Shown piece by piece: positions 1-11,689 of a stretch of DNA of 31,800 nt. This DNA comes from a virus: positions 1 through 31,800 of IMG/VR virus record IMGVR_UViG_3300042549_007292, one strand, 5' to 3'. A model generated the notes under the pieces. The model was not told the origin of the DNA and searched no databases. It saw only the letters and a program-made list of their open reading frames with translations. The position numbers and the translations under genes were made by a program. Every line of letters begins with the position of its first letter. Positions within the stretch are counted from its first letter, which is position 1.

Positions 1-126
1 GATGATATGATAGAGTCTCTTTATATTGATATGGATTCAATAAGAGAGGTAGATAGAATAGCGATATTAAGTTGGTTATCATCAAATTATAAATCACCTG
101 TAAAAAGAGACAAACCGAATTACTGA
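1..126 (+). CDS. C-terminal fragment of a cassette-encoded protein
   Basis: An open frame enters from the left edge and gives 41 residues before TGA at 124-126; the start lies outside the window. The fragment is polar and rich in Asp, Ser and Lys, with no motif I recognise. Its stop codon overlaps the first box of the next attC-like site, the same close packing seen at later cassettes, so it is probably the last part of a cassette gene. Function unknown. Confidence 0.6.
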   Translation, partial: DDMIESLYIDMDSIREVDRIAILSWLSSNYKSPVKRDKPNY

Positions 127-257
127 TAACGTTCGGGCGGTTGGCGTTCGTTGCCGACTTTGTAACATAAAACTTTAACTTTAAAATAAATGATAATATG
201 AAATACGAATCTTTGATACCCGAAAAACTCGGCAATGACGATAACCGCTTGTTATGT
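124..257 (+). repeat. attC-like site 1
   Basis: The site runs from TGATAAC (124-130) to GTTATGT (251-257). Inside, GGGCGGTT near the left pairs with AACCGC near the right, and TTGCCGA pairs with TCGGCAA further in, giving an imperfect hairpin with a long loop. A small ORF starts in that loop and crosses the right box. The layout matches integron attC sites (RYYYAAC ... GTTRRRY). Confidence 0.75.
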
Positions 258-290
258 GCAGGGCTTTGTTTGAATTGTAAACACCAATAA
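198..290 (+). CDS. 30-residue ORF starting inside attC site 1
   Basis: ATG at 198 follows an AT-rich leader and is read through the right attC box to TAA at 290. The product has two Cys close to the end (LCLNC). Four later cassette ORFs have the same arrangement, with the start in the attC loop and translation across the crossover, which makes this one more believable despite its size. No function recognised; it could also be a leader peptide for the 309 gene. Confidence 0.4.
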   Translation: MKYESLIPEKLGNDDNRLLCAGLCLNCKHQ

Positions 291-308
291 ACAAAACAAC
301 ACAAGACA

Positions 309-587
309 ATGAAAACATATAATGTAAAGTATGATGTTGGACAAGAAGTATATATACTTTTATCCAAAAAAATATTTAAAAGTAAAATTGAAAAGATTAG
401 AATTGTTCATGGGGTACCTTATATCAAAGGCGAAACAATGGAACAAACGGATGGAATTGAAATTGATTACTTGGTTGTAGTTAATAAACAATTCTATCCT
501 TCAGGTGGACATTCATCTAGTTATGATTGGTATAAACAGGATGATATTTTTTTGAATAAAGATGAACTGTGGCGGAAAATAATTTAA
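309..587 (+). CDS. Hypothetical cassette protein, 92 aa
   Basis: The ORF begins 51 nt after the attC 1 crossover box and stops just before attC 2, as expected of a cassette gene. It is a soluble, probably beta-rich protein: residues 1-45 contain a DVGQEVYIL strand followed by a Lys-rich KIEKIRI segment, and the C-terminus has a WYKQDDIF motif followed by KDEL. Small Bacteroidota proteins with a GxEVYxL start and a DDIFxxKEEL end are familiar to me as uncharacterised families. Function unknown. Confidence 0.75.
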   Translation: MKTYNVKYDVGQEVYILLSKKIFKSKIEKIRIVHGVPYIKGETMEQTDGIEIDYLVVVNKQFYPSGGHSSSYDWYKQDDIFLNKDELWRKII

Positions 588-591
588 TTGT

Positions 592-645
592 TTATAACGG
601 TTGAGGATATAAAATCGTTTTAATGTTTTATATCCTTTGTTATGG
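592..645 (+). repeat. attC-like site 2 (54 nt)
   Basis: TTATAAC at 592-598 and GTTATGG at 639-645 flank a perfect 11-bp inverted repeat (AGGATATAAAA and its complement) around the loop TCGTTTTAATG. Sites 3 and 4 have the same length and almost the same loop, so the three form a close family. Confidence 0.88.
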
Positions 646-684
646 TTTAGTTGAATTATTGTTTTACCTTAAAAAAAATAAAAT

Positions 685-948
685 ATGAAAAAATCGGAAA
701 ATTTCAATGAAGCACAAAAAACCAACTTGCGGTTAGCTGCTGTTATAAGCCGTTTTTTATTTCCATATCAAACTTGGATAAAGATGCGAGAAGAATCTAA
801 AGATGAATATGGTGAAAAATTATGCTACTGTGGACACACATATAAATGCACTTGTGGAAATCCAGATAAGAAATGTTTTAATGAAAGTGTAAAGCGAGGT
901 AGCATAATTTTGTGGGATGAAAAAAATGGTTGGAAAAATGGATTATAA
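685..948 (+). CDS. Hypothetical cassette protein with Cys cluster, 87 aa
   Basis: The only notable feature is a Cys/His cluster at about residues 47-63 (CYCGHTYKCTCGNPDKKC), which looks able to bind a metal such as zinc; this is inference from spacing. The stop codon TAA lies inside the first box of attC 3. The ATG follows an A-rich leader of the host type. No known family recognised. Confidence 0.72.
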   Translation: MKKSENFNEAQKTNLRLAAVISRFLFPYQTWIKMREESKDEYGEKLCYCGHTYKCTCGNPDKKCFNESVKRGSIILWDEKNGWKNGL

Positions 949-996
949 CGTCTGATGATAAACAATCGTTTTAATGTTGTTTATCATTTGTTATAT
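943..996 (+). repeat. attC-like site 3 (54 nt)
   Basis: TTATAAC (943-949) and GTTATAT (990-996) enclose a 10-bp inverted repeat (TGATAAACAA and its complement) with the loop TCGTTTTAATG, identical to the loop of site 2. The stem sequence differs completely from site 2, so structure and loop are conserved rather than stem sequence. Confidence 0.88.
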
Positions 997-1039
997 GAAT
1001 GTGTTATTTTTGTTTTACCAATTAAAAAAAATATAAATT

Positions 1040-1213
1040 ATGAAAAATGTTATGAAAGACAGAAAGATTGTTAAAATTGAAATACCAAAAGTGATATGGG
1101 ATGCTGAAATGTCTATATTCAACTTTAGACCAATATTCAAAACTTGGATGGAAAGTATCCAAGACGCTGTTAATAAAACACACGATAGTTATAAACCCTC
1201 AAAACAAAAATAA
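1040..1213 (+). CDS. Hypothetical cassette protein, 57 aa
   Basis: ATG at 1040 follows an A-rich leader; TAA at 1211-1213 lies 6 nt before attC 4. The product is basic at both ends with a central segment containing two Trp and many hydrophobic residues. An alternative start is Met5. No function recognised. Support comes from its place: it fills the only coding space in the cassette between sites 3 and 4. Confidence 0.6.
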   Translation: MKNVMKDRKIVKIEIPKVIWDAEMSIFNFRPIFKTWMESIQDAVNKTHDSYKPSKQK

Positions 1214-1219
1214 CATTTC

Positions 1220-1273
1220 ATATAACGGTTGAGTGTAAAAAATTGTTTTAATGTTTTTTACACTTTGTTATAA
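1220..1273 (+). repeat. attC-like site 4 (54 nt)
   Basis: ATATAAC (1220-1226) and GTTATAA (1267-1273) enclose an 11-bp inverted repeat (AGTGTAAAAAA and its complement) around TTGTTTTAATG. TTCATATAAC (1217-1226) is the exact reverse complement of the cassette start GTTATATGAA (990-999). Confidence 0.9.
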
Positions 1274-1305
1274 GTATGTAAAACAAAAATTATACAAATA
1301 AAATT

Positions 1306-1524
1306 ATGGAAATTAAATATACAATAAGAATTAAGGAAAAACACAACCCACCAACTTTTAAGGAAGAACTTGGTAAAGGTGTTGTTGCAACACAAATTGC
1401 AGATTTCAAAGGTGCAAATGAAAAGGACTTAGATAAACCAAATTTGCAACGACAGATATTTGAATTAGCAGAAAAGTTAAAGAACGAATGGTTTGAGGTT
1501 GTGTTTGAAATAAACAATCCATAA
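1306..1524 (+). CDS. Hypothetical cassette protein, 72 aa
   Basis: A small, highly charged protein with a beta-type N-terminus (MEIKYTIRIKEKH) and a C-terminal helix with WFEVVFEI. The pattern suggests an alpha/beta fold but no family is recognised. It begins 32 nt after attC 4 and ends 15 nt before attC 5. An antisense ORF over the same bases is rejected because the plus-strand ORF fits the cassette layout. Confidence 0.72.
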   Translation: MEIKYTIRIKEKHNPPTFKEELGKGVVATQIADFKGANEKDLDKPNLQRQIFELAEKLKNEWFEVVFEINNP

Positions 1525-1539
1525 TTTTTGTTTTATTGC

Positions 1540-1741
1540 TTATAACGGTTCGCGGGTTGGCGATAGTAATTTTACGGATTTAAAAAACGAAACAAAATGG
1601 AAGATAAAATAAAAGAAGTATTTAAGAAATACAGCAAATCAGTTGATACGGAGTACAATGTTTACAACTGCTTAATAGAAGAAGATTGGTCAAATATAGC
1701 AGAGGAGTTAGTAAAATTATTTCGCCAACCTGCTGTTATGC
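1540..1741 (+). repeat. attC-like site 5 (long loop)
   Basis: TTATAAC (1540-1546) and GTTATGC (1735-1741) are the ends. GCGGGTTGGCGA on the left pairs with TCGCCAACCTGC on the right with one mismatch. The loop of about 150 nt holds the start of the 1597 ORF. CTTATAAC (1539-1546) is the reverse complement of the cassette start GTTATAAG (1267-1274). Confidence 0.8.
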
Positions 1742-1842
1742 CTTCGTTGCCAAATGGCAAAAGGGTGTTAGCAGCACTAAAGGAATTGTCTGATTGCTTC
1801 ACTGATGAAGAACGAAAAACTATGTTTGGCAATGAGGCATAA
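1597..1842 (+). CDS. Hypothetical protein translated across attC 5, 81 aa
   Basis: The ORF starts in the attC 5 loop after an A-rich leader. Residues 1-46 come from the attC site; the crossover box is read as codons for Ala-Val-Met near residues 46-48, and the rest belongs to the downstream cassette. An ATG at 1738 in the same frame could also start a 34-residue product wholly inside the cassette. The N-terminal half looks helical and acidic. The stop overlaps attC 6. Function unknown. Confidence 0.62.
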   Translation: MEDKIKEVFKKYSKSVDTEYNVYNCLIEEDWSNIAEELVKLFRQPAVMPSLPNGKRVLAALKELSDCFTDEERKTMFGNEA

Positions 1843-1957
1843 CGGAATACAAATAAACGCAGTTTTATGAAGAACTTAATAGAAGAAATACAGTACCAAT
1901 TTGAAATGCTATGCCGATGGATGCTAGAACAAAAATTGCGTTTATTTGGTGTTAGCA
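1837..1957 (+). repeat. attC-like site 6
   Basis: GCATAAC (1837-1843) and GTTAGCA (1951-1957) are the ends. AATACAAATAAACGCA pairs with TGCGTTTATTTGGTGTT on the right. AGGCATAAC (1835-1843) is the exact reverse complement of the cassette start GTTATGCCT (1735-1743). Confidence 0.85.
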
Positions 1958-2052
1958 GAGCGTTTTATTGCCAGTCAGAAATTGAAGGTAATAGAAAATG
2001 CACAAATCAATGCGAACACTGTAAAGAGTATTACAAACCGTTGGAGCAATAA
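1867..2052 (+). CDS. Small Cys-rich protein translated across attC 6, 61 aa
   Basis: The start codon lies in the attC 6 loop. The first 28 or so residues, a helical segment, are encoded by the attC site, and the crossover is read through as FGVSRAF. The C-terminal half has four Cys (YCQSE ... CTNQCEHC), which suggests a small metal-binding knuckle; this is inference only. It ends 6 nt before attC 7. Confidence 0.6.
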   Translation: MKNLIEEIQYQFEMLCRWMLEQKLRLFGVSRAFYCQSEIEGNRKCTNQCEHCKEYYKPLEQ

Positions 2053-2058
2053 AATGTC

Positions 2059-2190
2059 TGCTAACGTTTTGCAGCTATATTTAGTTGCGGATTTTGAAAA
2101 CGAAAACTTTAAATAAAGATAAAATGAAATTAGAAGAACAAAACTCGAATGAACCACAGAAACCGCAATTGAATATAGGTGCTGTTAGCA
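2059..2190 (+). repeat. attC-like site 7
   Basis: TGCTAAC (2059-2065) and GTTAGCA (2184-2190) are the ends. CAGCTATATTTAGTTGCGG pairs with CCGCAATTGAATATAGGTG with few mismatches. TCTGCTAAC (2057-2065) is the exact reverse complement of the cassette start GTTAGCAGA (1951-1959). Confidence 0.88.
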
Positions 2191-2330
2191 GCAGTGTTTT
2201 GATGAAGTATATTAATATGACGAGAGAGGAAGAGATTCGGTTTATGAGTGAGTGTATAAATGGGAAACCGAGATATTCAGATAGCGAAATAGCTTTAGGT
2301 TTAGCAATGATGTCAATTAGTGGTAAGTAA
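2124..2330 (+). CDS. Hypothetical protein translated across attC 7, 68 aa
   Basis: I chose ATG 2124 because it directly follows an A-rich leader like its neighbours; an in-frame ATG at 2085 would add 13 residues and lies closer to the attC stem. About 20 residues come from the attC loop, then the crossover is read as GAVSSS. The cassette part contains a helical segment (MTREEEIRFMSECI) and a hydrophobic end. Function unknown. Confidence 0.6.
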   Translation: MKLEEQNSNEPQKPQLNIGAVSSSVLMKYINMTREEEIRFMSECINGKPRYSDSEIALGLAMMSISGK

Positions 2331-2336
2331 CATTGC

Positions 2337-2457
2337 TGCTAACGGTTTGCAGATTGGCGTTGTTGCCTCACAAATGTTTAATTGAAACACTAAATTTAAT
2401 AATATGGAAAATGATAATTTGAAAGACGAAAGCAATAACGCCAATGTGCTGTTAGCG
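2337..2457 (+). repeat. attC-like site 8
   Basis: TGCTAAC (2337-2343) and GTTAGCG (2451-2457) are the ends. GCAGATTGGCGTTGTTGC pairs with GCAATAACGCCAATGTGC with two mismatches. TGCTGCTAAC (2334-2343) is the exact reverse complement of the cassette start GTTAGCAGCA (2184-2193). Confidence 0.9.
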
Positions 2458-2862
2458 GATAGTAAAAATGGGCTAACTCCGATGCTCTTTGAATTGGGCT
2501 GGGGATGGTATGAAGATTGGAGTTACCATCTATTTATCCATTTCGGTAAAACGCAGGAGCAATTCAAAGAAGATGTAAAATTGCTTCTTGTAAAATATGG
2601 AAAGGATTATTTGAAAAGCGAAACAAGTTGGGCAGGTGCGAATGGGTGGGTGGATTTCATTGCCGATAAAATGCCTGAACTTGGCTACCAACCGATAAAG
2701 CCAATTAGAGAAAGTTTCTTTGGTGCATATATAATTGAAGGCAATCAAGATGATGACAAGCAGTGGGGAGAAGTTGTTGGAGATGAGCTTTTACAAGAAG
2801 CAATTTTACACAATAATAAATTGCGTGAGGAAATGAACAATAGTAACAATGAAGCCCAATAG
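2404..2862 (+). CDS. Hypothetical cassette protein translated across attC 8, 152 aa
   Basis: This is the largest cassette gene here. Residues 1-19 are encoded in the attC 8 loop, including the start codon, and the crossover is read as VLLAD. The rest (about 22-152) is a Trp-rich soluble protein with ELGWGWYEDWSYHLF near its start and an acidic C-terminus. Without the attC-provided start the cassette has no early in-frame ATG until residue 27, so the attC may supply its initiation. No family recognised. Confidence 0.75.
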   Translation: MENDNLKDESNNANVLLADSKNGLTPMLFELGWGWYEDWSYHLFIHFGKTQEQFKEDVKLLLVKYGKDYLKSETSWAGANGWVDFIADKMPELGYQPIKPIRESFFGAYIIEGNQDDDKQWGEVVGDELLQEAILHNNKLREEMNNSNNEAQ

Positions 2863-2876
2863 CCCATTTTTATTTC

Positions 2877-3005
2877 CGCTAACGGTTGGGTGTATATGTA
2901 GTGTGAGATTAGAACCACTACACTTGATTTAACCACAAATGTTTATTAGAAATAGAAATTTGAATATATCACTTAACCTCACATTACATATACACCTTGT
3001 TATGT
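2877..3005 (+). repeat. attC-like site 9
   Basis: CGCTAAC (2877-2883) and GTTATGT (2999-3005) are the ends. GGTGTATATGTA pairs with TACATATACACC, extended by TGTGAG/CTCACA. TCCGCTAAC (2875-2883) is the exact reverse complement of the cassette start GTTAGCGGA (2451-2459). The loop shares TTAACCACAAATG with site 11 and a close variant with site 10. Confidence 0.9.
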
Positions 3006-3102
3006 GTAGGTGTGGATTATTAAGATAAATGTTTATTCGGAGAACTGAACAAAATTTTAAAAGAAAAAGAAGGGTGGATTTTTTTATTTAAAGAATTATT
3101 GG

Positions 3103-3110
3103 TATATTTG
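3103..3110 (+). promoter_or_regulatory. Possible cassette-borne promoter (-7 TATATTTG)
   Basis: TATATTTG matches the Bacteroidota -7 consensus TAnnTTTG exactly and lies 17 nt before the ATG at 3128. No clear TTTG -33 box is seen upstream, only a T-run. If active, this cassette would be transcribed independently of the rest of the array. Confidence 0.45.
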
Positions 3111-3127
3111 TAAAAAAAATAAAGGAT

Positions 3128-3409
3128 ATGAAAATCGAAGATATTAAATACGAAAAACATAAATTTGAAATTGTTCAATGGTTTAAGAATGATGGAACAA
3201 TTTTAGGTGAAATTGAAAACGAACATGACTTTAATAATCTTAGAATAGAGTTAGTTAAAAATAACATAACTAAAGATTGTTATTTTATGTGGAACGATAA
3301 AAAAATAACTTTAGACGAAGAAGGTAATATGTCATCATTTCCTAGAGGATTATACGACCATGTTCAAGTAGCGATGATGAATTTATTCAATCTAAGAAAA
3401 CGTGTGTAG
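3128..3409 (+). CDS. Hypothetical cassette protein, 93 aa
   Basis: The start follows an A-rich leader with AAAGGAT, a weak Shine-Dalgarno look-alike that is unusual in this window. The protein is charged, with EIVQWFKNDGTILGEIE near the N-terminus and LYDHVQVAMMNLFNLRKR at the C-terminus, probably alpha/beta. No family recognised. It sits alone between attC 9 and attC 10. Confidence 0.75.
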   Translation: MKIEDIKYEKHKFEIVQWFKNDGTILGEIENEHDFNNLRIELVKNNITKDCYFMWNDKKITLDEEGNMSSFPRGLYDHVQVAMMNLFNLRKRV

Positions 3410-3468
3410 GTTTTTCTTTTAAAATTTTCAACCGAAATATTGATTGGAACGATAAACGAAACACTTAC

Positions 3469-3563
3469 ACATAACGGTTGGGTGTATGAAACGTAACCTA
3501 ACCACAAACTTTGAAATTAACCACTGAACTATAATAGGTTATGTTTTATACACCTTGTTATAC
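3469..3563 (+). repeat. attC-like site 10
   Basis: ACATAAC (3469-3475) and GTTATAC (3557-3563) are the ends. GGTGTAT pairs with ATACACC and GTAACCTA pairs with TAGGTTAT further in. TACACATAAC (3466-3475) is the exact reverse complement of the cassette start GTTATGTGTA (2999-3008). Confidence 0.9.
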
Positions 3564-3671
3564 ACAGTACGGTTTAATTAAGTAGAAGTTTGATACGAAG
3601 AACAATAAAAACTTTTTAAAATGTGCGGTGGAAAATTTAATTTCAAATATTTATATATAAACTAAAATATT

Positions 3672-3926
3672 ATGAGTAAAGAAATGAGAGAACAAATAGA
3701 CAGAGTAAAGAATTGGAAACAGTTTAATGAGAATATATATAAACCAACATTTAAAGATATAGATAAACCGTTATATAAAGAACCTAAAACTGGTAAAGAA
3801 CATTCATTAAACTATGAAGATATAGATTCTGAGTTTTCAAAATATTTAAGACAAAATTACTATAATGTGAAACTTAGTAATGAGGATGTTTCTTTAATTA
3901 GAAAAGAGTGGAAGGAAAATTTTTAA
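3672..3926 (+). CDS. Hypothetical cassette protein, 84 aa
   Basis: A small Lys/Glu-rich soluble protein with many Tyr and Asn; no hydrophobic segments or recognisable motif. It starts 108 nt after the attC 10 crossover, behind a long AT-rich leader that could hold a promoter, and ends 48 nt before attC 11. Function unknown. Confidence 0.72.
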   Translation: MSKEMREQIDRVKNWKQFNENIYKPTFKDIDKPLYKEPKTGKEHSLNYEDIDSEFSKYLRQNYYNVKLSNEDVSLIRKEWKENF

Positions 3927-3973
3927 AAAGTTTTTTACACAGAACTTAATTTGAAACATGAAAGTAGTATTGT

Positions 3974-4066
3974 GTATAACGGTTGAGGCTATGAGCAGTT
4001 GCCTTGTAAATACTGCTCGATTAACCACAAATGCTAATAGGCAATTGCTTATAGCCTTTGTTATAA
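3974..4066 (+). repeat. attC-like site 11
   Basis: GTATAAC (3974-3980) and GTTATAA (4060-4066) are the ends. GGCTAT pairs with ATAGCC, and GCAGTTGCCT pairs with AGGCAATTGC with one mismatch. TGTGTATAAC (3971-3980) is the exact reverse complement of the cassette start GTTATACACA (3557-3566). Confidence 0.92.
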
Positions 4067-4076
4067 GCCGTATTTT

Positions 4077-4304
4077 ATGGAAAATTCAAAGATATTAAAA
4101 GCAAGACAATTAAAGAAAAACGAAGCACTTAATGAAATTCGTAAAATATTCAATCCAAAATATAAATTTCCATATAGTCAAGCAGACCCTTATGGTGATT
4201 GGGATGATTTACCAAGTTGTGCAGAAGAAAGAGAAAAACGAATTTCATATATTATCGAACAACTTGAAAGAGATTTAAAAGAATTGAAAGTTGTCGGTTC
4301 TTAA
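4077..4304 (+). CDS. Hypothetical protein of the last cassette, 75 aa
   Basis: The ORF starts 10 nt after the attC 11 crossover, so there is almost no leader; its start may depend on translation from upstream. It is a highly charged helical protein with FPYSQADPYGDWDDLPSCAEER in the middle (residues about 35-56) and a long amphipathic helix at the end. Function unknown. Confidence 0.72.
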   Translation: MENSKILKARQLKKNEALNEIRKIFNPKYKFPYSQADPYGDWDDLPSCAEEREKRISYIIEQLERDLKELKVVGS

Positions 4305-4307
4305 TAT

Positions 4308-4317
4308 GGCTTATAAC
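4308..4317 (+). other. Unmatched attC half site at the array end
   Basis: GGCTTATAAC is the exact reverse complement of the start of its own cassette, GTTATAAGCC (4060-4069), so it is a true attC left box. No attC-type stem or well-matched right box follows. The next 50 nt hold only a GATTATATAATC palindrome, AT-rich repeats and a GTTACAT at about 4359, just before the recombinase gene. The attC was either truncated or recombined here. Confidence 0.7.
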
Positions 4318-4369
4318 ATGATTATATAATCAACTCTCTATAACTAATTAATAATTAATAGGTTACATA

Positions 4370-5173
4370 ATGAAAAATCAAAAAATTATAAAGATTTGTG
4401 AAGAAAAGTTTATATACTTAAATTACTCACCTCGAACAAGAGATAACTATCTCTCACATATCAGACCTTTCTTAGAGAGTTTAGATGATAAACAAGTAAT
4501 ACACTGCAATTCCCAAGATTTCCAATCTTATCTAGATAATTATAAATTCACCTCAGTGTCTCAACAAAACCAAGTTATTAACGCTATACGATTCTTATAC
4601 AAGTTTGGTCTAAATAAGAAATATGATAAAGTATCATTTAGAAGACCTAAATCAGAGAAAAAACTACCAAAAGTAGTTGACGGAGAGTTTATTATAAACC
4701 AATTATCCAAGATTAAGAATATCAAACATAAAGCAATACTAACTTTAACATTTTCTGTTGGATTAAGAGTATCTGAAATAATTAATCTTAAAATTGAGAA
4801 TATTGATTCCAAAAGAATGTTGATTTATATCAAAAATGCTAAAGGTAGAAAAGACAGGATTGTTCCACTCTCAGAAAAAGTACTAATATTACTTAGAGAA
4901 TATTTTGTTCAGTATAAACCAAAAGAGTATTTATTTAATGGTCAAAATTCAAATCAATACTCAGTAGGAAGTTGTCAAGTAATTTATAAAAAGTATATAG
5001 ATTCTACAGGACACATTCATACATTACGACATTCATGCTTTACAAATTTATTAGAAAACGGGACAGATTTAAGGATTATTCAGAAAATCGCAGGACATTC
5101 AAATATTAAAACTACTGAGATATATACGCATGTATCTAATCAAATTTTAAGTAAAGTAAATTTACCAATTTAA
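4370..5173 (+). CDS. Tyrosine recombinase (XerC/D-like integrase)
   Basis: The 267-residue protein has a SAM-like N-terminal core-binding domain (about 5-85) and a catalytic domain with all expected residues: Arg133 in GLRVSE, Lys158 in AKGRKDR, His217 and Arg220 in HTLRH, His243 in AGHSN and the nucleophile Tyr252 in EIYTHVS. It would cut and rejoin DNA at short core sites through a 3'-phosphotyrosine. Only about 28 residues separate YLF (187-189) from HTLR, so the extra segment that lets IntI handle folded single-stranded attC is not evident. It lies directly after the cassette array in the same direction. It could be a divergent integron recombinase, or a prophage integrase whose target was the array. 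Confidence 0.95.
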   Translation: MKNQKIIKICEEKFIYLNYSPRTRDNYLSHIRPFLESLDDKQVIHCNSQDFQSYLDNYKFTSVSQQNQVINAIRFLYKFGLNKKYDKVSFRRPKSEKKLPKVVDGEFIINQLSKIKNIKHKAILTLTFSVGLRVSEIINLKIENIDSKRMLIYIKNAKGRKDRIVPLSEKVLILLREYFVQYKPKEYLFNGQNSNQYSVGSCQVIYKKYIDSTGHIHTLRHSCFTNLLENGTDLRIIQKIAGHSNIKTTEIYTHVSNQILSKVNLPI

Positions 5174-5205
5174 TTAGGCCTTCAGGATTTTTATTTATAT
5201 ATTTA
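5174..5205 (+). promoter_or_regulatory. TTAGG-N19-TATATTTA promoter
   Basis: First copy of the phage promoter family, immediately after the recombinase stop codon. The spacing is exactly 19 nt, but the next ATG is 63 nt downstream, farther than usual. None are seen in the array to the left. Confidence 0.65.
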
Positions 5206-5268
5206 AAATAAAAATAATTATAAAAATAAAATTTGATAATATTGAGAATAAAATACTAGATAAAACTT

Positions 5269-5562
5269 ATGAAAAATAAAATAGACCAACCAAAAGTATT
5301 TATAGATTTGATGAAAGATAATTATATTCTAACTCGTTCAGATGATGAAAAACAAATTACAGTATCAGTAATTAAGTTTATAGAATGGAGTGAAGATGGA
5401 ATAGGAGGATTAACTCATGATGAACCAGCAATAGGAAGATCTATCATAGTTAATCCAACAGTTGGAGGAAATTATAAACTACTAACTACAGTCATCACAG
5501 AAATTATTAATGAAAATACATTTAAAACTAAAAATAATACTTATACAATACATAAATTATGA
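5269..5562 (+). CDS. Hypothetical protein, 97 aa
   Basis: A soluble, probably all-beta protein with alternating hydrophobic residues and a run of Gly (DGIGGLTHDEP) in the middle. No catalytic motif seen. Its stop overlaps the next start (ATGA), suggesting translational coupling with the small membrane protein at 5559. First gene on the phage side of the recombinase. Function unknown. Confidence 0.78.
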   Translation: MKNKIDQPKVFIDLMKDNYILTRSDDEKQITVSVIKFIEWSEDGIGGLTHDEPAIGRSIIVNPTVGGNYKLLTTVITEIINENTFKTKNNTYTIHKL

Positions 5563-5747
5563 AAAAACTATTTACACCTGAAAATTACTTAACTGGATTT
5601 CTAGTATCCGCAACATCATTTGTATTGTACTTCTTAATCACAACAACTAATAGTTGGAAATATATTTTAGGATTAGCAGTTATGGTTGCTGGATTCTCAG
5701 CGATTGGTTATGTTGTAAATAAAGCAATTGAAAAATTCTCAAAATGA
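5559..5747 (+). CDS. Small membrane protein, 62 aa
   Basis: Two predicted transmembrane helices: about residues 12-28 (LTGFLVSATSFVLYFLI) and 33-52 (WKYILGLAVMVAGFSAIGYV), with a short loop between and a basic tail. ATG overlaps the stop of the gene before by 4 nt. Could be a holin-like or inner-membrane protein, but nothing specific supports that. Confidence 0.75.
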   Translation: MKKLFTPENYLTGFLVSATSFVLYFLITTTNSWKYILGLAVMVAGFSAIGYVVNKAIEKFSK

Positions 5748-5788
5748 AAATTTGGTAAATTGAGTTCAAACGGAAATATATTTGAAAT

Positions 5789-6055
5789 ATGAGTGATGAA
5801 TGGAATACATTTAACGTAAAATACTTTGCAATACCTATGACTGCATTAGTATTCGGATTGGTTATAGGATTTGGAATATCTAATTCTAAAAAGAAACCAA
5901 GTAAACATTATCCAGTTGAAGTACAGTGCTATTGGAGTACTAATGGATATTCAAGTTATCCAACTATGGAGTGTGACTCAATCAAAGGAGACACATTATG
6001 GAAGGATGGAGGAAAAATTGTAACTAAAAATATCATAAACATATCATTCAAATGA
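5789..6055 (+). CDS. Membrane-anchored small protein, 88 aa
   Basis: One N-terminal transmembrane helix at about residues 11-28 (FAIPMTALVFGLVIGFGI) is followed by a basic stretch (SKKKPSK) and a soluble domain with two Cys that may form a disulphide or bind metal. The orientation is uncertain. Its stop overlaps the start of the next gene (ATGA). Function unknown. Confidence 0.75.
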   Translation: MSDEWNTFNVKYFAIPMTALVFGLVIGFGISNSKKKPSKHYPVEVQCYWSTNGYSSYPTMECDSIKGDTLWKDGGKIVTKNIINISFK

Positions 6056-6249
6056 CACCAAAAGAAAAAGCAAAAGAGTTATACTGTAAATACACAGATG
6101 CTCTTAACATAAGAGATTTACAAATAACTGCTAATCCATTTGCTAAACAGTGTGCATTGATTGCAGTTGATGAAATATTACTTGGATATATGTCAAATCC
6201 TAAAATATCGTATTGGCAATCAGTATATGAAGAAATAGAAAAACTATGA
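6052..6249 (+). CDS. Hypothetical helical protein, 65 aa
   Basis: A mostly helical small protein starting MTPKEKAKELYCKYTDAL, with a conserved-looking CALIAVDEIL segment in the middle. Short proteins with this EKAKELxxKY ... CAxIAVDEIL pattern are common in Bacteroidota phages, as uncharacterised families. Four-base overlaps with both neighbours indicate coupled translation. The antisense ORF over the same bases is rejected. Confidence 0.8.
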   Translation: MTPKEKAKELYCKYTDALNIRDLQITANPFAKQCALIAVDEILLGYMSNPKISYWQSVYEEIEKL

Positions 6250-6380
6250 AACAAACATCAATAGAATGGCTACTTCAACGATTTGAAGATGGTGATATGT
6301 ACAATGTTGAAGATGCTCAATTCATCAAGCATCAAGCAAAACAGATGCGCAGGGAGGCGATGAAGAATATGGTATATTAG
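6246..6380 (+). CDS. Hypothetical small protein, 44 aa
   Basis: ATG at 6246 overlaps the upstream stop (ATGA), and TAG at 6378-6380 is part of the TTAGG box of the next promoter. The product (MKQTSIEWLLQRFEDGDMYN...) is a charged helical peptide ending in a Lys/Arg/Met-rich tail. The coupling supports it as the last gene of a short operon with 6052. Function unknown. Confidence 0.7.
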   Translation: MKQTSIEWLLQRFEDGDMYNVEDAQFIKHQAKQMRREAMKNMVY

Positions 6381-6408
6381 GCTTATGGAACTTTATTTCA
6401 TATATTTA
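6377..6408 (+). promoter_or_regulatory. TTAGG-N19-TATATTTA promoter
   Basis: The TTAGG box contains the TAG stop of the 6246 gene; TATATTTA ends 23 nt before the start of the ATPase gene at 6432. Confidence 0.75.
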
Positions 6409-6431
6409 GTTTACACAAAAAAATAAAGATT

Positions 6432-7241
6432 ATGAAAAAACGAGGCCGTCCATCAAAAAATCCAACAGAACAACTAACACACGTTGAAATTGACTTTAGT
6501 CAAATTAGTAAATTAAAAGATCTTCATATTGATGCTCGAATGATGGAGCAGATGGAATCAGGAACAATACTTGATTTATTATTCAGTCATGAAGGTGGAG
6601 TACCAAGCGCGACTAATATTATCGCCTGTGGAGATCCAGGAATAGGTAAAACTACAATATTATTAGATTTATTAGCAGCAATACAACTTAAAAATCCTAC
6701 TAAACGATGTCTATTCATATCAGGAGAAATGGGTAAAAAACAGATGTTTAAATATACACAACGATTTCCTCAATTTGGAGTAGTAGATACTATATTTGTA
6801 TCTGATTATGTTGACCATAATGTTAAAGATGTAATGGAACAAGCCATGAATATAGGATGGGATCTGATATTAATCGATAGTATCGCTGAGGTTTTAGATG
6901 GAGTTAGAAATGATAATGGATGGGATCGAAAAATAGCTGAATCATGGTTAGTGGATGAATGTGTCAAGAATAATAAAGGTGATAATTTAACAAACAAATA
7001 CACAACATTTATTTGTATTCAACAAGTAAGAAAGGATGGAGGAGCAGTTGGTAGTAATAAATTAAAACATATGACTGATGCTTTATTAGAGGTGCGTCGT
7101 GAAAAGGAAAGTAATGGAGGTGGAACATATTTAGAATTTACTAAGAACCGAAATGGAAAGATTGAGAATAAGTTATATTTTCAATTAACTGGAACACAAA
7201 TCATTTATTCAAATATTAAAGAGGTTGAAGTAGAAGATTAG
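6432..7241 (+). CDS. RadA/DnaB-like P-loop ATPase
   Basis: A 269-residue RecA-fold ATPase. Walker A is GDPGIGKTT (67-75), the SGEM motif at 98-101 resembles the RadA/DnaB segment after strand 2, and Walker B is DLILIDS (144-150). Toward the C-terminus, QQVRKDGGAVGSNKLKHMTD (197-216) resembles the matching segment of RadA/Sms. The RadA zinc finger and Lon-like domain are absent. The protein likely acts in phage replication or recombination, as a branch-migration or helicase-type motor; which of these cannot be told. Residues 2-10 (KKRGRPSKN) form an AT-hook-like basic motif, shared in type with the GRP-repeat proteins at 12049 and 14500. Confidence 0.88.
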   Translation: MKKRGRPSKNPTEQLTHVEIDFSQISKLKDLHIDARMMEQMESGTILDLLFSHEGGVPSATNIIACGDPGIGKTTILLDLLAAIQLKNPTKRCLFISGEMGKKQMFKYTQRFPQFGVVDTIFVSDYVDHNVKDVMEQAMNIGWDLILIDSIAEVLDGVRNDNGWDRKIAESWLVDECVKNNKGDNLTNKYTTFICIQQVRKDGGAVGSNKLKHMTDALLEVRREKESNGGGTYLEFTKNRNGKIENKLYFQLTGTQIIYSNIKEVEVED

Positions 7242-7269
7242 GATTTCTAGATTTTCAAACATATGTTTA
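7238..7269 (+). promoter_or_regulatory. TTAGG-N19-TATGTTTA promoter variant
   Basis: TTAGG includes the TAG stop of the ATPase gene. The -7 box has G in place of A (TATGTTTA) and ends 22 nt before ATG 7292. Confidence 0.68.
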
Positions 7270-7291
7270 AATAAATTAAAAAATAAAAGTT

Positions 7292-7543
7292 ATGGATAAA
7301 AAAATCAAATTAGATCTAGTTGGATTAGACGGAAACGCGTTTGCATTAATGGGAGCATTCCAAAAACAAGCACAACGTGAAGGATGGACTAAGGATGAAA
7401 TCAAAATTGTCCTAGATAAATGTACAAGTGGTGATTATGATAACCTAATTATTACATTATTAGATAACTGTGATCCGGGAGATTGTTTTGATGAATATGA
7501 CTATGACAACTATGATAACGAAGTATATGATGATGAATACTAA
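7292..7543 (+). CDS. Hypothetical acidic protein, 83 aa
   Basis: The N-terminal half (IKLDLVGLDGNAFALMGAF, then QREGWTKDEIKIVLDKC) has a pattern I know from uncharacterised small proteins of Bacteroidota and their phages. The last 25 residues are almost only Asp, Glu, Tyr and Asn, giving a strongly negative tail, which is typical of nucleic-acid-mimic or ion-binding tails; that is inference. Its end overlaps the start of the membrane protein at 7533. Confidence 0.82.
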   Translation: MDKKIKLDLVGLDGNAFALMGAFQKQAQREGWTKDEIKIVLDKCTSGDYDNLIITLLDNCDPGDCFDEYDYDNYDNEVYDDEY

Positions 7544-7730
7544 AAATGATGGATCATCACTAACAGGAATACTATTAGTAGTGTTTATAGTGTTAAAGCT
7601 AACTAATCTCATTAATTGGAGTTGGTTATGGGTTCTAAGTCCATTATGGATACCTGTTAGTATAGTAGTGATACTTGTATCATTAACAGCACTATTAGTA
7701 TTAATTATGGAGGCTTTTAAGAGGTGGTAG
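7533..7730 (+). CDS. Small two-helix membrane protein, 65 aa
   Basis: The start at 7533 is chosen because it gives MNTKNDGSS directly before the first hydrophobic helix; the longer frame from 7470 would read through the upstream gene. Helix 1 is about 11-23 and helix 2 about 34-60, with NWSWLWVLSPLWIP between. This W...LSPLWI pattern recalls small phage proteins annotated as transmembrane Fragile-X-F-associated proteins. Its stop TAG lies in the next promoter. Role unknown. Confidence 0.72.
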   Translation: MNTKNDGSSLTGILLVVFIVLKLTNLINWSWLWVLSPLWIPVSIVVILVSLTALLVLIMEAFKRW

Positions 7731-7758
7731 GCTTACAGAGTAGGCAAACATATATTCA
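7727..7758 (+). promoter_or_regulatory. GTAGG-N19-TATATTCA promoter
   Basis: The left box contains the TAG stop of the 7533 gene. TATATTCA, the C variant, ends 23 nt before ATG 7782. Confidence 0.72.
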
Positions 7759-7781
7759 TTAAAATTAAAAAAACATATAAC

Positions 7782-8150
7782 ATGAACTTACAAGAAATCA
7801 GAACACAATTAGACGTCTTAAACAAGGCCGTAACGGAAATGGAAACTGCTAAAGCAGATTACACATTTACCAAAGAACAAATGGAACGTTTTATGAAACA
7901 TATTACTGAAACATTAGTTAAAGCAATTAATCAATCAATCGATTATGAATTTGAATTAGATGAGGACTTAATTGAAATGGAGATAAGTAGTAATTATAAC
8001 AAAACATTTGATATAGATTTAGAAATTGATCAACGTGAAATAAAACAAAACATCAAAGACATAATTGAATCATCATATGACGATAATGGAATGATGGAAG
8101 AAGTAGAGAATTGTTATCCAGCGATTATAAGTGAACCAGTTAAGAAGTAG
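7782..8150 (+). CDS. Hypothetical acidic coiled-coil-like protein, 122 aa
   Basis: Helical N-terminus with heptad-like spacing (LQEIRTQLDVLNKAVTEME, 3-21), followed by a second helix and two acidic segments with alternating polar and hydrophobic residues. No domain is recognised. Monocistronic: it has its own promoter and is followed by a hairpin at 8171-8192. Confidence 0.8.
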   Translation: MNLQEIRTQLDVLNKAVTEMETAKADYTFTKEQMERFMKHITETLVKAINQSIDYEFELDEDLIEMEISSNYNKTFDIDLEIDQREIKQNIKDIIESSYDDNGMMEEVENCYPAIISEPVKK

Positions 8151-8170
8151 TAGTAGAGTAAGTGAAGTAG

Positions 8171-8192
8171 GGGGCTTGGATTACCAAACCCC
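8171..8192 (+). terminator. Hairpin after the 7782 gene
   Basis: GGGGCTTGG and CCAAACCCC pair around the tetraloop ATTA with a single C:A mismatch. No T-run follows, so termination is uncertain. Its right arm overlaps the next promoter. Confidence 0.5.
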
Positions 8193-8206
8193 TTAATATA
8201 TATTTG
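8176..8206 (+). promoter_or_regulatory. Promoter TTGGA-N18-TATATTTG
   Basis: This copy has spacing one base shorter than the others and ends in TTTG, the host-type -7 box. It would start a transcript near 8212 that reads through the structured leader, tRNA-like element E1 and the 8394 gene. Confidence 0.6.
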
Positions 8207-8292
8207 ATAAGTACAAAGATACGGAATCAAATTAGTAGATTCAAGTCTCGCGGAATACAACGGGACACAAGCAGGTGGGAGTCCTGCTATAT
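8207..8292 (+). ncRNA. Structured leader RNA upstream of E1
   Basis: Three consecutive hairpins can be drawn: GAATC/GATTC, GTCTCG/CGGGAC (one G:U) and AGCAGG/CCTGCT with a 7-nt loop. Their sizes recall the D, anticodon and T arms of a tRNA, but no acceptor stem closes them and the T loop lacks TTCGA. It could be a decayed tRNA or a separate small RNA. Confidence 0.4.
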
Positions 8293-8371
8293 AGTCAGGT
8301 GGGTGTAATGAGGGACGGTTCCCAAATCCAATTATATGGTTACTTATTCGGTTCGAATCCGGCTCTGACTA
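8293..8371 (+). ncRNA. tRNA-like element E1 (79 nt)
   Basis: The acceptor AGTCAGG pairs with TCTGACT (one G:U), and a T-arm with loop TTCGAAT is present. The D-arm is weak and I cannot fold a canonical anticodon arm in the middle 30 nt. E2, E3 and E4 share the same acceptor and the 3' tail ACTAAAA. It may be a noncanonical or decayed tRNA. Confidence 0.55.
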
Positions 8372-8393
8372 CTAAAAATAAAAACAAAACAAT

Positions 8394-8630
8394 ATGCCAC
8401 ACACAGAAACATTTTTTGTATCAACAAAAACAAATAAAGTTAAACCTGTTGATGGAAACACAAGCTCCTATTTTAATCCCGATTGGAAAAGTAAAAATTT
8501 AGGAAAAGCAAAGTATATCATTGAGGTATTTGGTTATAATCATCAAAAAGTTGCTGAGGAAATCCGTGATATTATTGATGAAAAACAACTAAGTGATAAA
8601 TTATTTCATATAAGAGTAGAAACAAAATAA
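8394..8630 (+). CDS. Hypothetical protein, 78 aa
   Basis: The start at 8394 lies 23 nt after E1; an overlapping longer frame from 8275 is a shadow running through E1. The protein looks alpha/beta: a basic N-terminal part with NTSSYFNPDWKSKN, then KYIIEVFGYNHQKVAEEIRD (39-58) and a C-terminal strand FHIRVET. Position between two tRNA-like elements suggests one transcript processed at the RNA ends. No function recognised. Confidence 0.78.
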   Translation: MPHTETFFVSTKTNKVKPVDGNTSSYFNPDWKSKNLGKAKYIIEVFGYNHQKVAEEIRDIIDEKQLSDKLFHIRVETK

Positions 8631-8635
8631 ACAAT

Positions 8636-8806
8636 AGTCAGGTGGCGGAATGGTAGACCGTCTCTTGGTTGAGAAGGCTTATAGTCTATGTTTGGAGATT
8701 AACTCTTTGGCGTACCAACAACTATGGTGAAGTATGAATGTACCTCTCCCAATGTAGCAACAGAGTTCTAACTATAAGTATGCAGGTTCGAATCCTGTCC
8801 TGACTA
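8636..8806 (+). ncRNA. tRNA-like element E2 with long internal insert (171 nt)
   Basis: AGTCAGG pairs perfectly with CCTGACT. A D-arm (GCGG/CCGT around AATGGTAGA) and a T-arm (GCAGG-TTCGAAT-CCTGT) are clear. Next comes a hairpin TCTC/GAGA with a 6-nt loop TTGGTT. An 8-bp helix CTTATAGT/ACTATAAG then closes an extra domain of about 80 nt just before the T-arm. This is either a huge variable arm or an insert; it is too small for a normal group I intron. Confidence 0.6.
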
Positions 8807-8822
8807 CTAAAATTATAATGAT

Positions 8823-9017
8823 ATGAAAAAACTTAGTCTTGTAATTAAACATAATAGTGAAGATAGGGAACTACGTCTTCATGCCGATAATATGAATGAA
8901 ATGATAGAGAAAATCATTGATTGGCAAACTATGAATGTTGGGGATAAAAAATACTATGACAAAAAAGGAAAATTACAAAGCGAAATTGAAAGTGGCTGGT
9001 ACTATATAGAAAAGTAA
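8823..9017 (+). CDS. Hypothetical small protein, 64 aa
   Basis: A charged alpha/beta peptide: a first strand KKLSLVIKHN, a helix MNEMIEKIIDWQTM and a C-terminal strand with GWYYIEK. It starts 16 nt after E2 and no promoter of the phage family lies directly upstream, so it is likely co-transcribed with E2 and the 8394 gene. Function unknown. Confidence 0.72.
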   Translation: MKKLSLVIKHNSEDRELRLHADNMNEMIEKIIDWQTMNVGDKKYYDKKGKLQSEIESGWYYIEK

Positions 9018-9021
9018 GGAA

Positions 9022-9053
9022 TTAGGCTTTCAAAATAAATTAACATATATTCA
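9022..9053 (+). promoter_or_regulatory. TTAGG-N19-TATATTCA promoter
   Basis: Lies in the gap after the 8823 gene; TATATTCA ends 17 nt before ATG 9071. Confidence 0.75.
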
Positions 9054-9070
9054 GATAAATAAAAAAACAT

Positions 9071-9397
9071 ATGAAAATCACAAGAAAATCATTAAATGTA
9101 AATTTTGAACATGACGTTACAGTTGGTAACGCGATCGAAGCAACACTATGCCACATAGCGTGGATAAGTGAAAATGATAAGGGTGAAGTAGATATTGAGC
9201 TCGATTTTGCAGATATCGAGAATGTCAAATTCATGGGTATTCCTATTGAAGGATATGAAGGTTATAAAAAGTTTAAAGAAACAATGAAGGGAATGGGAAT
9301 AAACGTTAGTGAATTAATGGACAAAAAAGCAGCAGAACTGATCACAGACGAGGATATGGAACAATTAAAACAACTGTATCGTAACACAGTTAAGTAA
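9071..9397 (+). CDS. Hypothetical protein, 108 aa
   Basis: Soluble and acidic overall. Residues 1-55 look beta-rich with a basic start (MKITRKSLNVNFEHDVTVGNA); residues 60-108 look helical with GYEGYKKFKETMKGMGINV and a final LKQLYRNTVK. No family recognised. Own promoter upstream, and a strong hairpin directly downstream makes it a single-gene unit. Confidence 0.8.
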   Translation: MKITRKSLNVNFEHDVTVGNAIEATLCHIAWISENDKGEVDIELDFADIENVKFMGIPIEGYEGYKKFKETMKGMGINVSELMDKKAAELITDEDMEQLKQLYRNTVK

Positions 9398-9401
9398 AAA
9401 T

Positions 9402-9432
9402 GGGGGCCTTTAATTAGGCCCTCTAAGTTTTT
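9402..9432 (+). terminator. Rho-independent terminator
   Basis: GGGGGCCT and AGGCCCTC form an 8-bp stem (one G:U) with loop TTAATT, followed by AAGTTTTT. The right arm supplies the TTAGG box of the next promoter. Confidence 0.75.
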
Positions 9433-9445
9433 GAATATATATTTA
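9414..9445 (+). promoter_or_regulatory. TTAGG-N19-TATATTTA promoter
   Basis: Embedded in the preceding terminator: TTAGG is made by the hairpin loop and right arm. TATATTTA ends 21 nt before ATG 9467. Confidence 0.72.
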
Positions 9446-9466
9446 CTTCAAATAAAAAATACAAAC

Positions 9467-9607
9467 ATGAAAGAAGAAACACAATTCACAGAACTATCAA
9501 AGCATACTGAGAAATTATATGACGAATATGATATGACTGAAGGTCAATATGATTTATGGGATGATATTATGGAGAAAATTAAGGAATTGGCTTCCAAAAC
9601 AAAATAA
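9467..9607 (+). CDS. Hypothetical small acidic protein, 46 aa
   Basis: A short ORF with its own promoter and the normal A-rich leader. The product is helical and strongly acidic (HTEKLYDEYDMTEGQYDLWDDI), ending in a basic tail. The end of the gene also carries the next promoter, whose box starts inside the coding sequence. Function unknown. Confidence 0.68.
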   Translation: MKEETQFTELSKHTEKLYDEYDMTEGQYDLWDDIMEKIKELASKTK

Positions 9608-9617
9608 CATATATTCA
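9586..9617 (+). promoter_or_regulatory. ATTGG-N19-TATATTCA promoter
   Basis: The left box lies within the last codons of the 9467 gene. The -7 box ends 15 nt before the ATA codon at 9633 and 57 nt before ATG 9675. Confidence 0.7.
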
Positions 9618-9674
9618 GATAAATTAAAAAATATAGATCGAGATTTAAAAGAAACAGTACTAGATTATGTACAT

Positions 9675-9959
9675 ATGAAAAACCAACAAATAATAGATCA
9701 GATTATTCTACAACTCAAACAAATAGACGTGGACGGTGAAACAATGGAATATATCATCACACAAGTGGGAATGAAGGATCAAATGTTACATCAATTAAAA
9801 AGTGACTACAACGTGACACGATTCGAAGTGATTAACCACGCCAAAAACGATATGGGAATAGGACGGGTTATGACGTTATATAAAGATATGAACCATTTTA
9901 CAAATATTGAACTATCATATCAAGACAATGGTAAGACATTGAAGGTGTTTTTGGGTTAA
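9675..9959 (+). CDS. Hypothetical protein, 94 aa (start uncertain)
   Basis: ATG 9675 is the first conventional start near the promoter. Coding-type sequence clearly extends upstream to an ATA codon at 9633 (IDRDLKETVLDYVHM), at the spacing where neighbours have ATG, so the original start may have been lost or be ATA. The protein is helical, with QIDVDGETMEYIITQVGMKDQMLHQL in the middle and a beta-type end. I know this pattern from small uncharacterised proteins of Bacteroidota phages. Function unknown. Confidence 0.72.
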   Translation: MKNQQIIDQIILQLKQIDVDGETMEYIITQVGMKDQMLHQLKSDYNVTRFEVINHAKNDMGIGRVMTLYKDMNHFTNIELSYQDNGKTLKVFLG

Positions 9960-9973
9960 TGAGTGACAAACAC

Positions 9974-10021
9974 ATGACATATGTCATTATGTGGAGTACA
10001 TAATGTAAGGCACATAATGTA
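9974..10021. repeat. Cluster of inverted and direct repeats, possible operator
   Basis: ATGACATATGTCAT (9974-9987) is a perfect palindrome. It is followed by CATTATGTG (9985-9993) and two copies of ACATAATGTA (9998-10007 and 10012-10021), spaced 14 nt apart. Such spacing and symmetry suit a DNA-binding protein, but the sites follow rather than precede the nearest gene. Confidence 0.45.
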
Positions 10022-10036
10022 GTATAGGACAAATGT

Positions 10037-10099
10037 GAAGTGGGTGGGTGTGGTGAGAGTTGTGGAAAGGTAACCCCCTGTCGCGATCCCGCCCACTTC
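10037..10099 (+). ncRNA. Long GC-rich hairpin
   Basis: GAAGTGGGTGGG and CCCGCCCACTTC form a 12-bp stem (one G:U) closing a 39-nt loop. The GC content stands out from the surrounding AT-rich DNA. No T-run follows. It could be a small RNA, an RNA stability element or a terminator of unusual form. Confidence 0.5.
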
Positions 10100-10128
10100 C
10101 GCCGTATATAAAAGATATAGTTATATAA

Positions 10129-10160
10129 TTTGGCTTCCAAGATTCGCCTTCATATATTTA
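10129..10160 (+). promoter_or_regulatory. TTTGG-N19-TATATTTA promoter
   Basis: The left box is the host-like TTTG form. TATATTTA ends 25 nt before ATG 10186. Confidence 0.75.
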
Positions 10161-10185
10161 AGTATAATAAAAAACACAAAAACAT

Positions 10186-10386
10186 ATGTACACATTCGAA
10201 GAATATCAAAAAGCAAGCTCATTAGGAGCATTAACAACAGGAACAGTTATAGGTTACATTAAGTATAGTAATTTACCTGACAGTGAAAAGAAATCACTAG
10301 CCAAACAATTATTATGGTGTTATGAAGAGTCAGGAGCACAAATAACTGAATCAACCAAGAAAGAATTAGAAGATCTTTCAGCCTAA
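10186..10386 (+). CDS. Hypothetical small protein, 66 aa
   Basis: A soluble helical protein; the segment TFEEYQKASSLGALTTGTVIGYIKY (3-27) followed by LPDSEKKSLAKQLLWCYEESGAQ is unrecognised. Single-gene unit between two phage promoters. Function unknown. Confidence 0.76.
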   Translation: MYTFEEYQKASSLGALTTGTVIGYIKYSNLPDSEKKSLAKQLLWCYEESGAQITESTKKELEDLSA

Positions 10387-10388
10387 AA

Positions 10389-10420
10389 TTTGGCTTTCAA
10401 AGTTCAACTTCATATATTTA
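10389..10420 (+). promoter_or_regulatory. TTTGG-N19-TATATTTA promoter
   Basis: Begins two bases after the TAA of the 10186 gene; TATATTTA ends 24 nt before ATG 10445. Nearly identical to the copy at 10129. Confidence 0.75.
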
Positions 10421-10444
10421 ATTTACACAAAAAAATAAAAAATT

Positions 10445-10639
10445 ATGAGACACCCAGCACTTGAAATGATTGCCGAAGGCCACTCAGTAGAAATAGTAAT
10501 GAATATTCTCGGATTAGAGCTGGAGGAAATGTTAGACATAATAAATGGAGCGTTAGGGGAAAAAATTCATGTAGTAGAATTTATAACACAAATAATAGAT
10601 TCAAAAATAATAGAAAAATTCGAAGTAAATTTAAATTAA
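10445..10639 (+). CDS. Hypothetical small protein, 64 aa
   Basis: The first 35 residues look like a helix-turn-helix-type fold (HPALEMIAEGHSVEIVMNIL, then LELEEMLDIINGALG), which could mean DNA binding, but the similarity is only in pattern. It ends 1 nt before tRNA-like element E3, so gene and RNA probably share a transcript. Function unknown. Confidence 0.7.
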   Translation: MRHPALEMIAEGHSVEIVMNILGLELEEMLDIINGALGEKIHVVEFITQIIDSKIIEKFEVNLN

Positions 10640-10640
10640 T

Positions 10641-10723
10641 AGTCAGGTGGCTGAATGGTGAGGTAATTAAAGTTATTCACATATTGATGGATAAGTATAT
10701 AGGTTCGATTCCTATCCTGACGA
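10641..10723 (+). ncRNA. tRNA-like element E3 (83 nt)
   Basis: GTCAGG pairs with CCTGAC but the outermost pair is A:G. D-arm GCT/GGT and T-arm ATAGG-TTCGATT-CCTAT are present. In the middle, a 7-bp hairpin TTATTCA/TGGATAA has an 8-nt loop (CATATTGA) and sits 8 nt after the D-arm instead of the usual single base, so a normal anticodon cannot be assigned. Confidence 0.58.
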
Positions 10724-11688: not shown

Positions 11689-11689
11689 G

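Follow-up and report, generated by a model that had tools for sequence, protein, structure and literature searches.

A phage-encoded, integron-like cassette platform is very probably carried by the linear IMG/VR record IMGVR_UViG_3300042549_007292, whose whole length of 31,800 bases is called the window here. The window contains phage tail genes, including baseplate wedge matches, and two tRNAs (ARAGORN). Its host is probably a member of Bacteroidota, because the genome-borne relatives of its recombinase come mostly from this group. An array of cassettes leads up to a tyrosine recombinase gene (Table 1), and since the record begins within the array, further cassettes may lie upstream of the record start. 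For the half attC site between the array and the gene, the original prediction had offered two readings, either a non-IntI recombinase that runs a cassette system with its attachment site at 4318–4369, or a prophage integrated in a chromosomal cassette array. Sequence comparison shows the unit boundaries, entry position, polarity, natural gain and loss, presence in phage genomes and absence of the I2 insert described below.

Table 1. Features of the cassette platform in the window
Feature	Position	Strand	Remark
Cassette array, 11 cassettes	127–4316	+	record begins inside array
attC 1, TAAC to GTTA	127–254	+	unit 130–597, ORF 309–587
attC 2	595–642	+	unit 598–948, ORF 685–948
attC 3	946–993	+	unit 949–1225
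attC 4	1223–1270	+	unit 1226–1545, ORF 1306–1524
attC 5, long loop containing start of ORF 1597–1842	1543–1738	+	unit 1546–1842
attC 6	1840–1954	+	unit 1843–2064, ORF 1867–2052
attC 7	2062–2187	+	unit 2065–2342
attC 8	2340–2454	+	unit 2343–2882, ORF 2404–2862
attC 9	2880–3002	+	unit 2883–3474, ORF 3128–3409
attC 10	3472–3560	+	unit 3475–3979, ORF 3672–3926
attC 11	3977–4063	+	putative newest cassette, unit 3980–4316, ORF 4077–4304
End box GGCTTATAAC of last cassette, joined to putative phage attachment site	4308–4317	+	10-base match to cassette's own start
attI-like site, phage side (C ATGATTATATAATCAA...)	4317–~4345	+	matches relatives' TAAC followed by TAT(T)ATATATA...
Tyrosine recombinase, 267 aa	4370–5173	+	Pfam Phage_integrase 1.3e-35

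Half site and attI-like site

The attC finder, which looks for TAAC, a short spacer, stem, loop, stem, a short spacer and GTTA, gave 11 attC-like hairpins in the window, all on the + strand between 127 and 4063, and none after 4370 or on the − strand. The chance expectation was 0.02 sites on average (Markov-1 shuffles of 1–4370), and the symmetric version of the finder gave no attC site on either strand of 55-kb stretches of E. coli K-12. The predicted cassette end box at 4308–4317 is real: it is the reverse complement of GTTATAAGCC at 4060–4069, at the start of the same cassette. The finder gave no site beginning at 4314, and therefore no attC stem follows the box, as had also been predicted. 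The half had been called unmatched. Nothing is missing from it, and 4308–4317 appears to be a cassette/attI hybrid, the junction of the newest cassette with the phage's own attachment site. The crossover would lie between A4316 and C4317.

Relatives of the recombinase were fetched from IMG/VR and their upstream DNA was lined up. The 93 starting loci included 3 with too little upstream DNA and 14 missed by the junction rule (the window among them; several show the junction by eye); the other 76 gave 66 unique junctions. To the right of the box, these 66 share TAAC followed by TATTATATATA with up to 1.9 bits per position. The DNA before TAAC differs in nearly every phage, and little is conserved there save an ATT/ATG-like element with its T 11 bases upstream of the junction. 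Four loci (L159, L160, L161 and L163) have recombinase genes with 100% identity (801/801 bp) and 55 upstream bases in common, which end at the C of TAAC; beyond these bases they carry three different cassettes, the same one in L159 and L161. L176 and L177 likewise have different cassettes at TAAC, and the same switch is seen in L157/L158 and L165/L166, judged from the printed junctions. The conserved right side, the variable left side and the switches in L159, L160, L161 and L163 indicate that the attachment site, from 4317 onward, is constant, and the half box is therefore a property of the latest-arrived cassette. The attI-like junctions, the phage contigs with identical recombinases and unlike adjacent cassettes, and the Freya isolates (below) support the first of the two original readings.

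TAAC junctions like those of Freya also occur at L197:5950–6003 (Cellulophaga phage Ingeline) and L198:5890–5962 (Polaribacter phage Leef), where they precede genes annotated as 'integrase'. This suggests that Ingeline and Leef have small or empty platforms annotated as lysogeny integrases.

A phage promoter family had been placed right after the recombinase gene, from 5174. The promoter-like repeats TTAGGCTT ... CATATATTTA do follow the gene, but their first site is at 5197; our own pattern found 18 sites in the window (5197–18974) and none in 1–4369, which leaves the array outside the phage's own transcription pattern.

Cassettes as mobile units in phage genomes

The cassettes of the window open with GTTA and close with TAAC. 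Within one cassette, the two ends match over 8.6 bases on average; the figure is 5.0 when the ends come from different cassettes and 5.5 between both boxes of a single attC in the array. The last cassette fits this rule, with GTTATAAGCC at its start and GGCTTATAAC at its end. Across all phage loci, 269 cassettes were compared; their own ends match better than the in-array R boxes in 220 of them and less well in 18. The better match of own ends is therefore taken as the trace of a circular phase. The mobile unit consists of a hairpin and a small ORF, with a putative crossover at TAA^C. Consistently, the cassettes common to L129/L141, L129/L166 and L021/L133 each begin at a TAAC, include stem and ORF, and stop at the following TAAC, and the L129 copy is internal in its array while the L141 and L166 copies abut attI. 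The first 130 bases of the attC 9 unit are 100% identical to an attC of locus L136. Sharing is less clean in other pairs (for example L006/L145, L147/L176 and L156/L176), where similarity begins or stops within a unit.

Among the 62 viral loci having at least 1.5 kb of upstream DNA, 57 have at least two attCs upstream of the recombinase on the same strand. Same-strand attCs numbered 391 upstream versus 25 downstream in 88 viral loci, a count that leaves out L021 and L025–L036, which were scanned separately. The viral loci are metagenome contigs that include near-identical copies, and these counts are not independent. By the attC finder, more distant relatives (L022–L024, 33–35% identity) have no array, with one lone site in L024, and L175 (65–66% identity) has no attC although its junction is present. 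Arrays in L025 and L027–L030 lie beside recombinases with internal deletions and are perhaps frozen. In L025 residues 1–69 are joined to 198–267, and in L027 (L028–L030 are identical) residues 1–38 are followed by 250–267 in another frame. At L021:8753–13640 the recombinase similarity ends at residue 84 and nine more attC-like sites lie downstream, which looks like a second array next to the recombinase.

Gain and loss of units can be followed in isolates of Polaribacter phage Freya, of whose 10 records 7 were compared (Freya_3, 4 and 7 were left out). The flanks of these 7 are identical across all 1,902–2,500 bases compared, and the arrays are nested, F1 in F2 in F5 in F9 in F10, with F6 equal to F5 plus other material. 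Freya_10 is Freya_9 with one 307-base unit added adjoining the integrase, and Freya_8 is Freya_10 minus 902 internal bases. The isolates differ by cassettes alone, and every breakpoint lies at AAC. The authors of the Freya paper inferred temperate potential from the integrase (PMC8776804); a word search found neither 'integron' nor 'cassette' in its main text.

The second original reading, in which the prophage used an attC of a chromosomal array and the other half of that attC lies at the far phage end, gains some appeal from the phage-type recombinase and the promoter-like repeats that border the half site, and the record starts inside the array, so that the window alone cannot decide. The relatives speak against it. 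In three large phage contigs the recombinase and array lie inside the genome, with terminase on one side and a baseplate gene on the other: terminase, recombinase and baseplate are at 64, 197 and 263 kb in G016, at 206, 86 and 2 kb in G017, and at 175, 170 and 131 kb in G018. The array is also present in complete genomes from isolated Freya phages, and each relative joins the same attI to a different half site. Because the array is flanked by terminase and baseplate genes in these three contigs, integration of a prophage into a chromosomal array is rejected and is hardly credible at all.

The array could also be a CALIN, an orphan cluster of attC sites on which a host integron integrase acts, with the adjoining recombinase unrelated and serving lysogeny. 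Integrase-less CALINs in phages are described in PMC9892861, and isolated relatives were interpreted as carrying lysogeny integrases in PMC8776804. However, the entry site is conserved 36–91 bp upstream of the recombinase match start in all 66 junctions, the array adjoins the recombinase in the 57 loci counted above, and the attI sequence differs between the main clade and Freya. Moreover, IntegronFinder reported In0 alone in Bacteroidetes proper at first, and one complete integron later (PMC9024848). This explanation is therefore considered unlikely, and the neighbouring recombinase is probably the cassette enzyme of the platform. Cassette movement by a host enzyme in trans is possible.

Recombinase and probable folded-strand substrate

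The recombinase beside the half site, which matches Pfam Phage_integrase, was expected to lack the IntI insert, and its motif spacing bears this out. Residues R133, K158, H217, R220, H243 and Y252, which we take to be the catalytic set of tyrosine recombinases, are invariant in 42 of 42 aligned sequences. The distance from KDR to HxLRH is 53 residues in the window protein and 53–58 in 34 viral relatives, compared with 100 in IntI1, 62 in XerC and 65 in XerD. Spacing was measured for 34 of the 35 virus rows and for 69 of the 73 genome rows, 6 of the latter giving 25–27, probably from wrong motif matches; for the second IntI row no spacing was taken, and the insert is visible in the printed alignment. 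In the AlphaFold2 model (pLDDT 87.6) there is no helix at the I2 position. The best PDB match of the model was the V. cholerae integron integrase 2a3v ('integron recombination'; E 1.0e-13, TM 0.77), with XerA just behind. Against curated models, the protein scored 178 bits for XerA, 148 for XerD, 145 for XerC and 144.8 for the integron integrase (TIGR02249). It falls below every Xer equivalog cut-off (XerC, XerD and XerA) and below the 265-bit cut-off of TIGR02249.

A tree was built from 73 of 80 genome rows and 36 viral rows, one of which is the window and 35 of which were selected. In it, most phage enzymes fall in a crown group within a family from Bacteroidota, Chlorobi and Calditrichota genomes. 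The two IntI rows and the two E. coli Xer rows fall outside the family, and L020, L022, L024 and Leef branch elsewhere within it. On an Acinetobacter plasmid (L037:2967–3632), a 'xerD' gene beside tet(X3) encodes a relative 50% identical over residues 49–267 and shorter at the N-terminus than the window recombinase; L074, L080 and L082 are listed likewise. tet(X3) may once have been carried in such a cassette system.

The hairpins of the phage loci carry a strand-biased signal. On the ORF strand, stem mismatches comprised 471 G-T and 74 A-C when both were scored alike. This symmetric finder replaced an earlier one that scored G-T above A-C (747 versus 43); the greater stability of 309 of 325 sites on the ORF strand and the pair table are results of that biased finder and are not counted as proof. 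Unpaired bases are one-sided, since the 5' spacer is mostly 5 nt after AAC and the 3' spacer mostly 1–2 nt before GTT. The base after TAAC is G in 337 of 346 attCs and T in 62 of 66 attI junctions, and the two kinds of site overlap in TAAC with no common region beyond it. The usual duplex exchange uses a 6–8 bp overlap. Because attC and attI diverge right past TAAC, this exchange is not expected to work, and the strand-biased G-T pairs together with the missing shared overlap therefore imply integron-like recombination of a folded single strand.

The substrate would accordingly be single-stranded on the cassette side. The recombinase would act on a double-stranded attI-like site (about 4305–4345) just upstream of its own gene and also on the attC hairpins. 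A cassette, in which a single hairpin precedes a small ORF on its own strand, would enter most likely as a circle, and the folded ORF strand of its attC would be cut at TAA^C in the 5' box and then linked to TAA^C of attI, with exchange of the second strand presumably avoided. The incoming cassette would land next to the recombinase and push older ones away, and excision would be the reverse reaction between two attCs. In the so-called unmatched half, the bases left of C would then come from the newest cassette, as its 3' end, and those to the right from the phage attI. Classic integrons have the same geometry, with the cut in the 5' AAC box of the folded bottom strand. In the phage loci, the folded strand carries the cassette ORF, directed toward the recombinase, in 251 cases versus 4. 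Since the folded strand also bears the ORF, the cassettes mirror classic ones relative to their genes.

Ordinary double-strand Xer-type recombination at the TAAC core, with incidental hairpins, would suit a recombinase that lacks the I2 helix and is nearest in sequence to the Xer models (scores above), and the attI resembles, by eye, two inverted arms flanking a short spacer. This explanation does not account for the single TAAC in common between attC and attI, for hairpins retained with strand-biased G-T wobble, or for boundaries that require one box only, and we regard it as quite unlikely. As for the cassette platform, PMC7790495 describes the I2 helix as necessary for cassette capture, which counts against it because the window protein has none. 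On balance, we consider it somewhat more probable than not that Bacteroidota and their phages share a tyrosine recombinase family which, although I2-less, acts on attC hairpins as folded single strands, and that phages use it to gather and reshuffle small genes.

Known systems and cargo

The platform resembles an integron in several respects. Its recombinase adjoins an attI-like site where cassettes enter, the single-gene cassettes are ordered, their attCs are inverted repeats with AAC/GTT boxes, cassette start and end match as in a circle, and the nearest solved fold is that of V. cholerae IntI. In contrast to classic integrons, where ORFs read away from attI and attC is downstream of the ORF, the phage cassettes have the polarity given above, and the platform is carried inside phage genomes. 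Because it differs in the I2 insert, the integrase cut-off and ORF polarity, it is not an IntI integron as defined. It presumably works like one, and its chemistry would be that of an I2-less, phage-borne integron variant. It differs from a CALIN, which has no linked recombinase, and from Xer/dif, whose equivalog cut-offs the window protein does not reach and whose central 6–8 bp overlap its sites lack, although it shares the Xer sequence family, including the tet(X3) xerD.

The phage CALINs and integrons of PMC9892861 (Qi et al. 2023) are similar in that attC arrays occur in phage genomes with methyltransferase cassettes, but they were found with IntegronFinder and an attC pipeline and have classic IntI or no integrase. 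One example from that paper, P12002L, was rejected as a member: none of its 82 features is annotated as a recombinase, and our finder gave no clear array. That paper was the one report of phage integrons found in the open-access literature, with preprints outside the scope, and a search of the same literature found no I2-less cassette recombinase, with preprints and subscription papers outside its scope. Integrons are very rare in Bacteroidetes in the IntegronFinder surveys described in PMC9024848.

Chromosomal arrays of Bacteroidota (Flavobacterium, Arundinibacter and others; L117, L098, L118 and L072) have recombinases of the same family (41–44% identity, no I2) and nearby attCs of the same build; the attCs of L143 and L154 are 79–81% identical to those of L098. 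In contrast to the phage loci, these arrays lie downstream of the recombinase with ORFs on the unfolded strand, as in classic integrons (0 folded versus 15 unfolded in 8 loci). Arrays downstream of recombinase relatives with classic polarity were seen on the Bacteroidota/Ignavibacteriota contigs L117, L118, L098, L072, L064 and L126. Many other genome contigs end just past the recombinase gene, perhaps within arrays.

Median length over 396 cassettes is 388 bases, and most of them contain a small ORF. The longest ORF is on the attC strand in 352 and on the other strand in 13, while 31 have no ORF of 50 residues. The Pfam scan covered 88 cassette proteins, 8 of them from the window and the others being the 80 longest among 247 cluster representatives, and at most 12 matched. 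Four of the 12 matched families are DNA or adenine methyltransferases, and the others include RNA ligase, exoribonuclease and phosphatase. Counter-defence is a plausible use, and the cassettes presumably help the phage. The host promoter motif TAnnTTTG, tried as a cassette element, was rejected: it occurs within 90 nt after GTTA at 36 of 345 sites, which is no enrichment over shuffles (mean 27, maximum 38).

Large phages of Bacteroidota-type bacteria appear to carry their own gene-capture platform, a dedicated device whose cargo mostly has no Pfam match and would in part be anti-restriction. According to PMC7790495, recombination between single-strand and double-strand sites is unique to integron integrases. 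Natural attC arrays without I2 in many phage contigs make the I2 requirement directly testable, and the isolated Freya phages are an existing test system. If the reading is true, cassette capture is possible without I2, and integrons may predate I2 or arise without it. A phage 'integrase' need not imply lysogeny, as it was taken to do for Freya in PMC8776804.

Two further kinds of structure in the window were also observed. The ORF of cassette 8 contains a perfect 22-base inverted repeat (2574–2595 / 2789–2810). tRNA-like 5' and 3' halves (GTCAGGTGG ... TTCGAATCC..CTGACTACTA) occur at 8294–8374, 8637–8809 and 13804–13947, with about 80–170 bases from one end to the other; Rfam recognises a tRNA only at 13804–13947, and ARAGORN recognises none of the three. 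They are possibly tRNAs with long inserts.
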